Source: Oscillospiraceae bacterium (GTDB lineage Bacteria; Bacillota; Clostridia; Oscillospirales; Oscillospiraceae). Taken from it: DNA of 52,943 nucleotides. A model generated the notes under the pieces. It searched no databases. It saw only the letters and a program-made list of their open reading frames with translations, and was not told where the DNA came from. Location: contig JAFXUU010000104.1 in NCBI GenBank assembly GCA_017524845.1, positions 1 through 52,943 on the forward strand, read 5' to 3'. This document shows positions 14,862-20,149 of the stretch, piece by piece (position 1 is the first letter of the stretch; every line of letters begins with the position of its first letter). A program made the position numbers and the translations under genes.

Positions 14862-15926
14862 ATGCGGGAAAAGCTGATCGCCATCGAGAAAAAATACGGG
14901 CAGCTGGAGGCCAGACTGGCCGATCCCGCCTGTTATAACGATCCGGAGGCCCTGCGGAAGCTCACCCGGGAGCAGAAGGAGCTGCAGCCCGTGGCGGAAA
15001 AGCTGCGGGAGCTGCGGAGGCTGGAGGCTCAGCTGGCGGAGGCGGAGGAGCTGCTGCGCTCCGGGGACGGGGAGCTGCGCGCCCTGGCCCGGGAGGAGCT
15101 GGAAACGGGCAGGATCCGGCAGACGGCCCTGGAGGAGGAGCTGAAGGTCCTCCTGCTGCCCCGGGATCCGGACGACGGACGCAACGTCATCATGGAGATC
15201 CGGGCAGGCGCCGGGGGAGACGAGGCCGCCCTTTTCGCCCATTCCCTCTACCGAATGTACGCCATGTACGCGGAGAAGAACGGCTGGCGGCTGGAGCTGA
15301 CGAACCTGAACGAGACGGAGCTGGGCGGGGCCAAAGAGGTCTGCTTCCGGGTGGAAGGGGCGGAGGCCTACGCCCGCCTGAAATTCGAGAGCGGCGTCCA
15401 CCGGGTGCAGCGGGTGCCGGACACGGAGACCCAGGGACGCATCCACACCTCCACCGTCACGGTGGCGGTGCTCCCGGAGCTGGACGAGGTGGAATTCCGC
15501 CTGGACGAGAAGGACCTGCGCATCGACGTGTTCCGCTCCTCCGGCGCGGGCGGGCAGAAGGTGAACAAGACCTCCTCCGCCATCCGCGTCACCCACCTGC
15601 CCACGGGCATGGTGGTGGAATGCCAGGACGAGCGCAGCCAGTATAAAAACAAGGACCGGGCGCTCAGCATCCTGCGGAGCAAGCTCTATGAGCTGGAAAA
15701 GGAGAAGCAGCGCTCCGCAGTGGCGGCGGAGCGGAAGAGCCAGGTGGGCACCGGCATGCGCAACGAGCGCATCCGCACCTACAATTTCCCCCAGGGCAGG
15801 GTGACGGACCACCGCATCGGCCTGACCCTGTATAAGATCGACGCCGTGATGGACGGAGATCTGGAGGAGCTGATCGCCGCCCTGCGGGCGGCGGAGCAGG
15901 CGGAAAGGCTGCGGGGAGCGGAATGA
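14862..15926 (+). CDS. prfA: Peptide chain release factor 1
   Basis: 354 residues, the standard RF1 length. The GGQ peptidyl-hydrolysis motif is at 230-232 in 'SSGAGGQKVNKTSSA'. The codon-recognition tripeptide is of the RF1 type PxT (here PDT, in 'VQRVPDTETQGRIHTS') and not the RF2 SPF. 'NVIMEIRAGAGGDEA' is also typical. RF1 ends translation at UAA and UAG. The gene overlaps tsaC by 4 bases. In Bacillus and many Firmicutes prmC, which methylates the GGQ glutamine, lies between prfA and the Sua5 gene; here it is absent from that slot. Confidence 0.97.
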   Translation: MREKLIAIEKKYGQLEARLADPACYNDPEALRKLTREQKELQPVAEKLRELRRLEAQLAEAEELLRSGDGELRALAREELETGRIRQTALEEELKVLLLPRDPDDGRNVIMEIRAGAGGDEAALFAHSLYRMYAMYAEKNGWRLELTNLNETELGGAKEVCFRVEGAEAYARLKFESGVHRVQRVPDTETQGRIHTSTVTVAVLPELDEVEFRLDEKDLRIDVFRSSGAGGQKVNKTSSAIRVTHLPTGMVVECQDERSQYKNKDRALSILRSKLYELEKEKQRSAVAAERKSQVGTGMRNERIRTYNFPQGRVTDHRIGLTLYKIDAVMDGDLEELIAALRAAEQAERLRGAE

Positions 15927-16927
15927 AGACGGAGCTTTTGGATGCCTCCGGAGCCGCCCGCGCCGCGGAGCTCCTGCGGGCCGGGGGCCTGGTGGCCCTC
16001 CCCACGGAGACGGTCTACGGCCTGGGAGCCAACGGCCTGGACGAGAAGGCCGTGGCCCGCATCTTCGAAGTGAAGGGCCGCCCCCAGGACAATCCCCTCA
16101 TCCTGCACGTGGCCTCGGCGGAGGATCTGGACAGGTGGTGCCGGGATATCCCGGCGGAGGCCCGTGCGCTGACGGAGCGATTCTGGCCCGGCCCCCTCAC
16201 CCTGGTGCTCCGCCGGCGGCCCTCGGTGCCCCTGCGGGTAACGGCGGGGCTGGAGACGGTGGCCATGCGCTGCCCGGACCATCCCCTGACGAGGGAGGTG
16301 CTGCGCCTGGCGGGCGTGCCCGTGGCGGCCCCCAGCGCCAACCTCTCCGGCAAGCCCAGCACCACCACCGCGGCGCACTGCGTCCACGACCTTTGGGGAA
16401 AGGTGGAGGCCATCCTGGACGGAGGCCCCTGCCGGGTGGGCCTGGAATCCACCATCCTGGATCTCAGCGTTTTCCCGCCCCGGGTGCTGCGGCCCGGCGG
16501 CGTCACCCTGGAGCAGCTGCGCGCCGTCCTGCCGGAGACGGAGCTGGACCCGGGCCTGGTGCGGCCCGACGAGATCCCCAAGGCCCCCGGCATGAAATAC
16601 CGTCACTATTCTCCCCAGGCGGAGCTGCGCCTCCTGCGGGGGGAGAAGGAACGGTTTTTCGATTATGTAAACTCACTTCCCGACGCGGGCACGGCCGTGC
16701 TCTGCTATGCCGGGGAGGAAGGGAATTTCCCCGGCAAGCGGGCCCTGGCCTATGGCCGGGAGGACGCGCCGGAGACCCTGGCTGCCGGGCTTTTCGACAG
16801 TCTGCGGGCCCTGGATACGCCGGAGGTCGCCCTCATCTGTGTCCGCTGCCCCTCGGAGGAGGGCGTGGGCCGGGCGGTGGTGAACCGGCTGAAAAAGGCG
16901 GCGGGAGGGAAGATAACGTGTTTGTGA
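15923..16927 (+). CDS. tsaC: L-threonylcarbamoyladenylate synthase (Sua5 type)
   Basis: 334 residues, the long Sua5/YwlC form with a C-terminal Sua5 domain (about 220-334). The N-terminal YrdC domain has 'GGLVALPTETVYGLG', the 'KGRPQDNPLILHV' substrate loop, 'FWPGPLTLVL', and 'PVAAPSANLSGKPS'. It makes threonylcarbamoyl-AMP from threonine, bicarbonate and ATP, the first step of tRNA t6A synthesis, feeding TsaB/TsaE encoded upstream. The start overlaps the prfA stop (ATGA). Its stop overlaps the next start by 10 bases. Confidence 0.95.
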   Translation: MKTELLDASGAARAAELLRAGGLVALPTETVYGLGANGLDEKAVARIFEVKGRPQDNPLILHVASAEDLDRWCRDIPAEARALTERFWPGPLTLVLRRRPSVPLRVTAGLETVAMRCPDHPLTREVLRLAGVPVAAPSANLSGKPSTTTAAHCVHDLWGKVEAILDGGPCRVGLESTILDLSVFPPRVLRPGGVTLEQLRAVLPETELDPGLVRPDEIPKAPGMKYRHYSPQAELRLLRGEKERFFDYVNSLPDAGTAVLCYAGEEGNFPGKRALAYGREDAPETLAAGLFDSLRALDTPEVALICVRCPSEEGVGRAVVNRLKKAAGGKITCL

Positions 16928-18768
16928 TCGGCATCACCGGCGGCACCGGAACGGGGAAGACCACGGCTCTGGAGACCGTCCGGGAGCTGGGCGGCGAGAT
17001 CATCGACTGCGACGAGGTGTATCACGGCCTGCTGGCGTCGGACAAGGCCCTGCTGGCGGCCATCGAAGCTGCCTTCCCCGGCACGGTGGAGGACGGGGTC
17101 CTCCTGCGCAGGAAGCTGGGGCAGATCGTCTTCGGGGACGAAGGAAAGCTGCTGAAGCTCAACGGCATCACCCACGGCTTCGTGAAGAAAGAGGTGGAAA
17201 GGCTCCTGGCGGAGGCCCGCCGGGCGGGGAAGACCCTCGCCGCCGTCGACGCCATCGCCCTCATCGAAGGGGGGCTGGGGGCGCTGTGCCAGGCCACCGT
17301 GGCCGTCTGCGCCCCGGAGGAGACCCGCGTCCGGCGGCTCATGGCCCGGGAGGGCGTCACGGAGGAATACGCCCGCCTGCGCATCCGGGCCCAGAAGAGC
17401 GAGGATTGGTTCCGGCAGCACTGTACGGTCACCCTGGTGAACGACGGCAGCCGGGAGGAATTTGCGGAAAAATGCCGGCGGTGCTTCGAGGCGCTGCCGG
17501 GGGAGGTTCAGAGCATGAGCATGGAAACGATGGAAAAGCTGGAATCCGGCGTGCGGTCCTACAGCCGGGCCTTTCCCGTGGAGTTCACCCGGGCCAAGAT
17601 GTCCCGGATGTACGCCGCCGACGGGCGGGCCTATCTGGATTTCTTCGACGGGGCCGGGGCCCTGAACTACGGCCACAACAACGATTACATCAAGGAGAAG
17701 ATCCTGGCCTACCTGGCGGACGACGGGATCACCCACGCCCTGGACATGTTCACCGGGGCCAAGGCGGCCTTCTTCGAGGCCTTCGACCGGATGATCCTGC
17801 AGCCCAGGGGCCTCCGCTACCGCCTCATGAGCTGCGGCCCCACGGGCACCAACGCCGTGGAGGCGGCCCTGAAGCTGGCCCGGAAGGTCACGGGGCGCAC
17901 GGGCGTCTTCGCCCTCACCGGCTCCTTCCACGGGATGAGCCTGGGTTCTCTCGCCGTCACCGCCGGGGTAGACCACCGGGAGGGCGCCCACGTGCCCCTG
18001 TTCTTCACGAATTTCGTGCCCCATCCCAACGCCGTCGGCTTCGATACCATCGACTACTATGAGTGGCTGCTGACGGACAATTACTCCGGCGTGGAGAAGC
18101 CCGCGGCCTTCATCATCGAGACCACCCAGGCCGAGGGCGGCATCCAGATCGCCCCCACGCCCTGGCTGCAGCGGCTGCGCGCCCTCTGCGACCGGCACGG
18201 CATCCTGCTGATCGTGGACGATATCCAGGTGGGCTGCGGCCGCACGGGGAGCTTTTTCAGCTTCGAGCGGGCGGGCGTCGTGCCGGACCTGGTGGTGCTG
18301 AGCAAATCCATCTCCGGCTACGGGCTGCCCATGTCCCTGCTGTTGATCCGCCCCGAGCTGGACAAGTTCTATCCCGCCGAGCACAACGGCACCTTCCGGG
18401 GCAATCAGCTGGCCTTCGTGGGCGCGAAGGCGGCCCTGGAATACCGGGAAATGGTGGACCTGGACAGCCAGGTGAAGCACAAGGAAAAGCTGGTGTCCGA
18501 CTATATCGAAGAAAAGCTCCTGCCCATGGACGACCGCCTGCGGCACCGGGGCATCGGCCTCATCCACGGGGTGGATTTCGAACAGCTCGGGGACGTGAGC
18601 GGCGCGGTGGCGAAGGAGTGCTTCCGCCGGGGCCTGGTGATCGAGCGGGCCGGAAGGAACGACTGCGTGCTGAAGCTCATGCCCGCCCTCACCATAACGG
18701 AGGAGGAGCTGGCCGAGGGCCTGGACATCATCCACGAGAGCATGCTGACGATTTTGGGAGGAAGATAA
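16918..18768 (+). CDS. Fused dephospho-CoA kinase / diaminobutyrate--2-oxoglutarate aminotransferase
   Basis: One open frame of 616 residues from GTG 16918 (GGAGG 9 bases upstream). Residues 1-199 are CoaE: P-loop GGTGTGKT at 8-15, 'IIDCDEVYH' with the conserved acidic pair at 30-32, 'DAIALIEGGLGALC', and a lid segment 'REGVTEEYARLRIRAQ'; the length is normal. CoaE phosphorylates dephospho-CoA in the last step of CoA synthesis. Residues 200-616 are a full-length EctB-like class III aminotransferase starting 'MSMETMEKLESGVRSYSR', with 'DDIQVGCGRTGSFFSFE' and the PLP lysine K463 in 'SKSISGYGLPM'. EctB converts aspartate semialdehyde and glutamate to 2,4-diaminobutyrate. No ectA or ectC is near. 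I see no stop between the halves, but a good internal ribosome-binding site precedes ATG 17515, so free EctB may also be made. Confidence 0.85.
   Translation: MFVIGITGGTGTGKTTALETVRELGGEIIDCDEVYHGLLASDKALLAAIEAAFPGTVEDGVLLRRKLGQIVFGDEGKLLKLNGITHGFVKKEVERLLAEARRAGKTLAAVDAIALIEGGLGALCQATVAVCAPEETRVRRLMAREGVTEEYARLRIRAQKSEDWFRQHCTVTLVNDGSREEFAEKCRRCFEALPGEVQSMSMETMEKLESGVRSYSRAFPVEFTRAKMSRMYAADGRAYLDFFDGAGALNYGHNNDYIKEKILAYLADDGITHALDMFTGAKAAFFEAFDRMILQPRGLRYRLMSCGPTGTNAVEAALKLARKVTGRTGVFALTGSFHGMSLGSLAVTAGVDHREGAHVPLFFTNFVPHPNAVGFDTIDYYEWLLTDNYSGVEKPAAFIIETTQAEGGIQIAPTPWLQRLRALCDRHGILLIVDDIQVGCGRTGSFFSFERAGVVPDLVVLSKSISGYGLPMSLLLIRPELDKFYPAEHNGTFRGNQLAFVGAKAALEYREMVDLDSQVKHKEKLVSDYIEEKLLPMDDRLRHRGIGLIHGVDFEQLGDVSGAVAKECFRRGLVIERAGRNDCVLKLMPALTITEEELAEGLDIIHESMLTILGGR
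17501..17517 (+). promoter_or_regulatory. Internal ribosome-binding site and start codon of the EctB half
   Basis: GGGAGG (17501-17506) lies 8 bases before ATG 17515, which matches the natural EctB N-terminus (MSMET). The site is inside the uninterrupted coaE-ectB frame, so it either is a relic of two separate genes or gives a separate aminotransferase product. Confidence 0.6.
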
Positions 18769-18769
18769 G

Positions 18770-20149
18770 ATGACGCGAGACGAACTGTTTTTCAAGCAGA
18801 AGAATATCTATGAGACGGCAGACGAAGCCAAGGTCCGGGAGATCTACGATTTCGCCGAGGGCTACAAGACCTGGCTCAGCGCCTCTCGCACCGAGCGGCT
18901 GGCCGTCCGGGAGGCGGTGAAGCTGGCCGAGGCCGCGGGCTTCAAGCCCTGGGTCCCCGGCAAGGCCCATAAGGCCGGGGAGAAGCTGTATTTCGTGAAC
19001 CGGGAGAAGGCCCTCACGCTGGCGGTGCTGGGCAAAAAGTCTCTGGCGGAGGGGGCGAATATCGCCGCAGCCCACGTGGACAATCCCCGGCTGGACCTGA
19101 AGCAGCAGCCCCTTTATGAAGACGGGGAGATGGCCTTCTTCAAGACCCATTACTACGGCGGCATCAAGAAATATCAGTGGGTGACGACGCCTCTGGCCCT
19201 GGTGGGCACGGTGGTCCGGGCCGACGGGGAGAAGATCGACGTATCCGTGGGCCTGGATAAGGGGGAGCCCCGCCTCGTCATCACCGATCTGCTGCCCCAT
19301 CTGGCCGGGGATCAGATGAAGAAGAACGCGGCCGACGTCATCACCGGCGAGGGCCTGAATCTGCTCCTGGGCTCCCGGCCCGACGCCGAGGAGGGCGCCG
19401 ACCGGGTGAAGCTCCGGGTGCTGAAGCTGCTCCATGAGAAATACGGGATCACCGAGGCGGACTTCCTCTCCGCCGAACTCTGCGCCGTCCCTGCCGACGA
19501 GGTCACCGACATCGGGCTGGACGGGAGCTTCATCGGCGGCTACGGCCACGACGACCGGGTCTGCGCCTACGCCGAGCTCATGGCCGTGCTGGAGACGAAA
19601 AAGCCCGAAAAGACCGCCGTCTGCCTCCTGGTGGACAAGGAGGAGATCGGCTCCGAGGGCGTGACGGCCATGCAGTCCGCCGCCTTCGACCGTTTCATGG
19701 AGGACCTCTGCCGGGCCCAGGGCGTCTCCCTGCGGGAGTGCTGCGCCCGGTCCTTCTGCCTCTCCGCCGACGTGTGCAACGCCTTCGATCCCAATTTCCC
19801 CGACGTCAGCGAGAAGCGCAACAACGCCAGGGTGAATTACGGGGTGGGTATCCTCAAATTCACCGGCTCCCGGGGCAAGTCCGGCTCCAATGACGCTTCC
19901 GCCGAGGTGGTGGGCCGGGTGCGCCGCCTGCTGGACGGCGCGGGCGTCGCCTGGCAGATGGGCGAGCTGGGCAAGGTGGACAAGGGCGGCGGCGGCACCG
20001 TGGCCATGTTCACCGCCCGCCGGGACATCGACACCATCGACGCCGGGGTCCCCGTGCTGAGCATGCACGCCCCCTTCGAGGTCATCGCCAAGGCGGACCT
20101 GTATATGACCTACGCCGCCGTGAAGGCCCTCTACGCAGCGGCGATTTGA
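18770..20149 (+). CDS. M18 family aminopeptidase (aspartyl aminopeptidase type)
   Basis: 459 residues, the usual M18 length. A metal-binding histidine is at residue 102 in 'AAHVDNPRLDLK'. Other metal or catalytic segments are 'GYGHDDRVCAYA', 'DKEEIGSEG' and the C-terminal 'MHAPFEVIAKADLY'. M18 enzymes are dodecameric cytosolic zinc peptidases removing N-terminal acidic or hydrophobic residues. ATG 18770 lies 1 base after the upstream stop, with GGAGG (within the end of the aminotransferase gene) as ribosome-binding site, so it is co-translated with the fusion gene. The last codons overlap the -35 box of the next promoter. Confidence 0.92.
   Translation: MTRDELFFKQKNIYETADEAKVREIYDFAEGYKTWLSASRTERLAVREAVKLAEAAGFKPWVPGKAHKAGEKLYFVNREKALTLAVLGKKSLAEGANIAAAHVDNPRLDLKQQPLYEDGEMAFFKTHYYGGIKKYQWVTTPLALVGTVVRADGEKIDVSVGLDKGEPRLVITDLLPHLAGDQMKKNAADVITGEGLNLLLGSRPDAEEGADRVKLRVLKLLHEKYGITEADFLSAELCAVPADEVTDIGLDGSFIGGYGHDDRVCAYAELMAVLETKKPEKTAVCLLVDKEEIGSEGVTAMQSAAFDRFMEDLCRAQGVSLRECCARSFCLSADVCNAFDPNFPDVSEKRNNARVNYGVGILKFTGSRGKSGSNDASAEVVGRVRRLLDGAGVAWQMGELGKVDKGGGGTVAMFTARRDIDTIDAGVPVLSMHAPFEVIAKADLYMTYAAVKALYAAAI

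Follow-up and report, generated by a model that had tools for sequence, protein, structure and literature searches.

Known relatives of the fused gene

A functional link between two enzymes is commonly inferred from the fusion of their genes. We analysed a fusion in which dephospho-CoA kinase (CoaE) runs in frame into an EctB-type diaminobutyrate aminotransferase, encoded in a 52,943-nucleotide stretch of Oscillospiraceae bacterium DNA (GenBank assembly GCA_017524845.1, contig JAFXUU010000104.1, positions 1 to 52,943, forward strand), referred to here as the window. Human COASY (PPAT-DPCK) likewise carries dephospho-CoA kinase in a multidomain chain, but its partner is N-terminal and belongs to the same pathway, one step earlier. 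Mycobacterial CoaE with a C-terminal UPF0157 domain is also a single chain in which the kinase is extended at its C-terminus, and the extra domain of the M. tuberculosis protein is reported to aid folding (PMC2765170). The window partner differs in being a complete pyridoxal phosphate (PLP) aminotransferase. Against NCBIfam PRK03333 (395 positions), which we take to cover CoaE of the UPF0157 type, the window CoaE aligns over model positions 1-188 and scores 112 bits, below the cut-off of 215. EctB enzymes of ectoine and nonribosomal peptide synthetase (NRPS)-linked pathways share the sequence family (NF006733) and the best Protein Data Bank (PDB) matches with the EctB part; unlike these, the window EctB is fused to CoaE, and no ectA or ectC was recognised among its neighbours.

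We consider the window gene a genuine inherited fusion that arose by loss of the coaE stop within an operon, is near-neutral and retains the internal start of the downstream gene (probability roughly 0.66). It appears to be a side effect of gene order that is tolerated, and not a new metabolic link. No description of fusions of CoaE to EctB, of CoaE to an M18 aminopeptidase, or of carbamoyl-phosphate synthase large subunit (CarB) to diaminopimelate epimerase (DapF) was found in the open-access literature searched (titles and abstract openings, with M18 and CarB covered more lightly). The EctB partner did not appear in that search, and the stop-loss mechanism is ordinary.

The fused open reading frame

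An earlier note on this DNA had described an in-frame fusion of a 199-residue CoaE to a 417-residue EctB-like protein, with GGGAGG at 17501-17506 and ATG at 17515-17517. Translation and Pfam agree with the 616-residue fusion, and the coordinates proved exact. The open reading frame (ORF) runs from GTG to TAA without an internal stop, and its parts are as follows.

16918..18768, + strand: fused coaE-ectB ORF, 616 codons plus TAA, GTG start; stop-free homologues in genomes G001-G005 and G085
16918..17514, + strand: CoaE (dephospho-CoA kinase) part, codons 1-199; Pfam PF01121 at residues 3-179
17500..17506, + strand: Shine-Dalgarno-like GGGGAGG, 8 nt 5' of the internal ATG; anti-Shine-Dalgarno duplex energy -12.5 kcal/mol
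17515..17517, + strand: internal ATG in the same frame, probably where free EctB starts; six of the 7 fused genes have ATG here and one has GTG
17515..18768, + strand: EctB-type diaminobutyrate aminotransferase part, codons 200-616 (417 codons); PF00202 at residues 218-607, NF006733

The Pfam CoaE match reached 120.5 bits (cut-off 27) and the class-III aminotransferase match (Aminotran_3, PF00202) 217.3 bits (cut-off 30.5). The EctB part scored above the cut-off of the NCBIfam diaminobutyrate--2-oxoglutarate transaminase model NF006733 (572.7 against 438 bits) and narrowly below that of TIGR02407, the ectoine EctB equivalog (540.8 against 552.2), and was therefore assigned to the transaminase family and not to ectoine EctB. 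The unfused EctB of a relative, G013, scored 551.4 on the latter model. The nearest PDB structures to the EctB part are the diaminobutyrate--2-oxoglutarate transaminases 9s1q, 9s1p and 6rl5. The tryptic peptide that spans the CoaE-EctB junction is CFEALPGEVQSMSMETMEK.

Both halves are constrained. Residues G8, G11, G13, K14 and T15 of the P-loop, together with D30, D32, R137 and R140, all of which we take to be functional in CoaE, are invariant in 13 aligned CoaE sequences including that of the window. The PLP lysine K463 is invariant across 23 aligned EctB sequences and aligns with a position occupied by Ala in PDB chain 9s1p_H and by Lys in 9s1q_A. For the 21 pairs of the seven fused genes, the ratio of nonsynonymous to synonymous substitution rates (dN/dS, NG86 method) was 0.11-0.46 in the CoaE part and 0.05-0.34 in the EctB part, with the larger dS values near saturation. 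A single CoaE match, always the fused copy, was obtained in each of the seven fused genomes (71-90% complete; control genomes positive in 10 of 14), and the cell probably has no CoaE besides this fused copy. Given the conserved residues, the purifying selection and the absence of another CoaE match, the fusion protein should be both a dephospho-CoA kinase and a diaminobutyrate aminotransferase, as far as can be predicted from sequence.

The fusion in related genomes

The stop-free ORF was present in six of the seven genomes of the window genus (G000-G005). Identity to the window was 87-88% for G001 and G002 and 69-70% for G003-G005. In a second genus, g80, one of two genomes (G085) carried the fusion, and the one TGA of this gene is its terminal stop. 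The seven fused genomes thus span 69-88% identity to the window and two genera (g1 and g80). The remaining member of each genus, G006 (82% complete) and G166 (66% complete), lacked the ORF and also any CoaE match, so both are uninformative and do not count as counter-examples. A stop in all close relatives at this point, which would have spoken for two separate genes, was therefore not what the search of related genomes found. Among named records, RUG14053, Tb.RUG.415 and RGIG10357, a bin from yak rumen, carry the fused locus; the RUG names presumably also denote rumen bins.

Across the family, 32 of 400 genomes had an EctB match (E<=1e-70). Seven were fused, 13 had coaE adjoining a separate ectB, 11 had no coaE in the stretch around ectB, and G171 was left unclassed because its partial match lies at a contig start. 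A named locus, L102, adds a further unfused pair to those of the 13 genomes. The order-level search (394 genomes, 15 of them matching at E<=1e-90) gave no further EctB fusion among the matches listed.

CoaE is also fused to an M18 aminopeptidase

The architecture is less singular than the earlier note supposed, since CoaE also runs into M18 in other members of the family. Five loci without ectB had coaE ORFs of 657-667 codons, and the two tested with Pfam were CoaE plus M18. A stop-free match over the full span of CoaE-M18 was found in 37 of the 400 family genomes, in 18 genera, among the matches listed. All 37 were confirmed as single ORFs in 42 fused loci, five of which are second records of the same genomes; the 113 coaE-M18 loci examined include duplicates and fused loci fetched on purpose. 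One fused genome, G187, is a single contig, and a partial match without a stop in G407 stands outside the 37.

L104:5950-7944, L125:216-2186, and L104-L106, L110, L185-L189, L191 and L215-L229: CoaE-M18 fusions, fused in frame

On a CoaE+M18 tree of 129 rows (122 different loci), CoaE-M18 fusion needs 16 changes of state, 15 of them forced by starred branches; this is a quick tree with SH-aLRT support (Shimodaira-Hasegawa-like approximate likelihood ratio test) only, and gain and loss cannot be told apart on it. Under a strict cut-off, 197 genomes of the order gave eight CoaE-M18 matches, one fused (G025, of the same family) and seven with stops. The CoaE-M18 fusions resemble the window fusion in operon position, in the CoaE end, in the absence of a stop and in keeping an internal Shine-Dalgarno sequence and start. 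They differ in the partner gene, in having changed state many times where the EctB fusion probably did so once, and in a statistically clearer retention of the Shine-Dalgarno sequence. The partner specificity expected of a functional 'Rosetta stone' fusion was not borne out: the same CoaE end joins either EctB or an unrelated peptidase.

The coaE stop appears to drift. Across 42 loci, of relatives and of named records together, the junction lay in frames 0, 1 and 2 in 14, 17 and 11 cases, and six of the 14 frame-0 junctions were fused, three of these being near-copies (L104-L106). When the junctions of 86 in-frame loci were shuffled, 33.5% were free of stops. Among the matches listed, 37 of 92 full-span in-frame coaE-M18 rows (0.40) were stop-free; the in-frame rows number at least 92, and G407 was left out of this count. 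Since 40% is close to the 33.5% from shuffling, the stop behaves as nearly free, and the fused fraction is about that expected of an unconstrained stop.

Gene order and origin of the fusion

The neighbours of the fused ORF in the window are listed below.

14862..15926, + strand: prfA (peptide chain release factor 1), PCRF and RF-1 domains; upstream neighbour, conserved synteny
15923..16927, + strand: sua5/tsaC (threonylcarbamoyl-AMP synthase), by Pfam and synteny
18770..20149, + strand: M18 aminopeptidase, PF02127 and synteny; comes after coaE in nearly all ectB-less relatives, some of which have the two fused

The end of sua5 and the start of the fused ORF overlap by 10 nt (16918-16927), so the operon is tightly packed. 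In 44 of 48 loci without ectB, M18 follows coaE in the same orientation, in most cases with prfA and sua5 ahead of them; the exceptions are L024, L030, L103 and L130, and some of the 48 loci are two records of one genome. Genera g3, g8, g24, g86, g88 and g95 have ectB as a separate gene, with coaE on one side and M18 on the other. The 14 unfused coaE-ectB pairs examined differ widely at the junction, the genes overlapping by up to 14 bases in some and lying well over 100 bases apart in others. At L039 and L040 (G296 and G258), the coaE frame of an unfused pair runs 14 bases into ectB before it ends, which is the other extreme from fusion. In G091 the two genes share one frame with a single TGA between them.

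A tree of PrfA, Sua5 and M18 was built from 55 rows (6 fused, 11 unfused and 38 without ectB), after two of the 57 loci chosen (L018 and L028) were dropped for having too few flanking genes; fused G002 and unfused G175, G296 and G310 stand outside it. On this tree insertion of ectB is one change, with a support of only 55, and fusion is one change (SH-aLRT 83). The closest unfused relative is G013, sister to the fused rows. Loss of the stop codon that separated two neighbouring genes explains the fusion best, as the earlier note had proposed. Its picture of two overlapping genes is right as to the lost stop; overlap is only sometimes the state of the unfused pairs.

The course of events is read as follows. 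The usual family order is prfA-sua5-coaE-M18, and synteny and tree show that one group of genera acquired ectB between coaE and M18. In g1 and g80 the coaE frame subsequently became joined to ectB without a stop, most simply once, in a common ancestor. The CoaE C-terminus would tolerate extension and its stop would drift almost freely, with fusion to the next gene whenever frame and absence of a stop permit. Both halves evolve under purifying selection with their conserved residues kept, the fused CoaE being the only one found by sequence. The retained Shine-Dalgarno sequence and ATG or GTG would let ribosomes also start at EctB, giving CoaE-EctB and free EctB, and the locus would yield no free CoaE unless by processing. 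CoaE and EctB would have no metabolic link.

The internal start

All seven EctB fusions have GAGG 8 bases 5' of the in-frame ATG (six genes) or GTG (one gene). The anti-Shine-Dalgarno duplex energies were -12.5 kcal/mol in three, -11.3 in one and -6.9 in three, which make up the second subclade. At the internal start of M18, the median energy was -10.2 kcal/mol in 37 fused and -10.3 in 69 separate genes, against -1.8 at 217 control ATGs; the energy was at or below -5 kcal/mol in all 37 fusions and in 22% of the control ATGs. Seven duplicate loci were left out of these energy comparisons and of the resampling described below.

As a pattern across CoaE fusions, the retention of internal starts is well supported by these sequences; for EctB taken alone it is weakly supported. 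The internal starts may be active in translation. The earlier note's suggestion that the cell could make both the fusion and free EctB thus stands as a possibility: the Shine-Dalgarno sequence and start are kept in seven of seven genes and the statistics at EctB are weak, leaving a dual output of CoaE-EctB and free EctB plausible but unproven.

Weighing the explanations

Several results count against an inherited, near-neutral fusion with a retained internal start. At the EctB junctions, six loci were set against 27 control ATGs, and 37% of these controls likewise come to -5 kcal/mol (p 0.049; L146 was scored here at an upstream ATG, -0.9, its GTG start having -11.3). Synonymous resampling gave p<0.05 in none of the seven EctB fusions (median 0.18) and in 14 of the 37 M18 fusions, and strong selection on the Shine-Dalgarno codons at the EctB junction was not demonstrated. 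Because of the weak contrast with controls and the outcome of resampling, retention of the EctB start may be passive. The CoaE+M18 tree needs two changes for the fused EctB rows, with which a single origin is still compatible. The neutral estimate of stop-free junctions ignores phylogeny and is a rough guide, and the persistence of fusion in several clades may reflect selection. Finally, a second CoaE may have been missed in genomes that are 71-90% complete.

Concealment of a real stop by sequencing or assembly error or by recoding is hardly credible. The seven fused coaE-ectB genomes are all draft assemblies of many contigs; assembly error was nevertheless ruled out because the seven agree across 69-88% identity to the window, with junction codons that differ between subclades, and recoding or frameshifting is superfluous where no stop is present. 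A functional bifunctional enzyme, with CoaE and EctB joined for channelling, co-regulation or oligomer scaffolding as a 'Rosetta stone' pair, would suit a fusion that spans two genera with both parts constrained, and in 20 of the 32 family genomes that match EctB, ectB is a neighbour of coaE or fused to it. Against it, 37 of 400 genomes have this CoaE end joined to an unrelated peptidase, with many changes of state; fusions are about as frequent as drift of the stop would make them; and we know of no substrate common to the known CoaE and EctB reactions. We regard such an enzyme as quite improbable.

It is also possible, if somewhat doubtful, that the fusion is a minor product and that the main one is EctB made from the internal start, a few CoaE heads on mixed EctB oligomers supplying the CoaE. 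The energy of -12.5 kcal/mol in the window speaks for this, as do EctB homo-hexamers, reported for the enzymes of two species (PMC5924519), on which a fusion could place CoaE heads; the weaker -6.9 kcal/mol in the three second-subclade genomes speaks against it. A broader version, in which the coaE stop of this family flickers over evolution, CoaE recurs as an N-terminal head on the next enzyme, an intact internal ribosome site maintains supply of the headless form, the ratio of headed to headless chains sets the CoaE dose and the window has CoaE only as heads on EctB oligomers, strikes us as rather unlikely. For the near-neutral inherited fusion, the part that deserves specialist attention is its recurrence with an intact internal start. 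The normally essential CoaE, fused within one family to two unrelated neighbours at about the rate of a drifting stop, offers a natural test of where the fusion rule misleads, and about 44 fused loci (7 EctB, 37 M18) with matched unfused ones make internal initiation inside a fused gene measurable.

The role of EctB and other observations

The earlier note's statement that no ectA or ectC is nearby holds for the identified neighbours prfA, sua5 and M18, the rest of the window not being annotated throughout and no search aimed at EctA being made. A genome-wide search for EctC gave a match in none of 18 genomes and likewise in none of 14 control genomes. Replacement of diaminopimelate (DAP) by diaminobutyrate (DABA) in peptidoglycan was considered and found no support. 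DapF was above the cut-off in all seven fused genomes and MurE in six; each was above it in 38 of 39 genomes, the MurE exception being fused G002 (83% complete). On these matches, DABA does not seem to replace DAP. A norspermidine/diaminopropane route (Dat plus a decarboxylase) likewise found no support, as the PLP decarboxylase family PF00282 was above the cut-off in none of 18 genomes (controls positive in 8 of 14; other decarboxylase families were not searched). Weak PF00282 matches in G003-G005 reached 18-19 bits against a cut-off of 27.

Elsewhere, at L067, L074, L078, L081, L087, L097 and L165, the genes immediately upstream of ectB are murT and one for a GatD-like amidotransferase (one of each tested with Pfam), suggesting use of DABA in the cell wall of other Clostridia. 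At 12 loci (L072, L073, L076, L079, L080, L086, L099, L157, L158, L159, L163 and L164, with L073 and L158 on the same contig) ectB stands beside a protein of about 340 residues, which was ATPgrasp_ST (PF14397) in the one tested. A large protein common to eight loci with a close EctB was an NRPS in the two tested with Pfam. The murT/GatD-like, ATP-grasp and NRPS neighbours are hints of DABA in cell-envelope or peptide products.

A further fusion, of CarB to DapF in about 1350 residues, was observed at three loci, the first assigned by domains and the others by sequence ends.

L182:1273-5355 (G001): CarB-DapF fusion
L181:4960-8985 (G000:C10): CarB-DapF fusion
L183 (G029): CarB-DapF fusion

The DapF match lay inside an open frame of >1100 codons in 25 of the 39 genomes searched.

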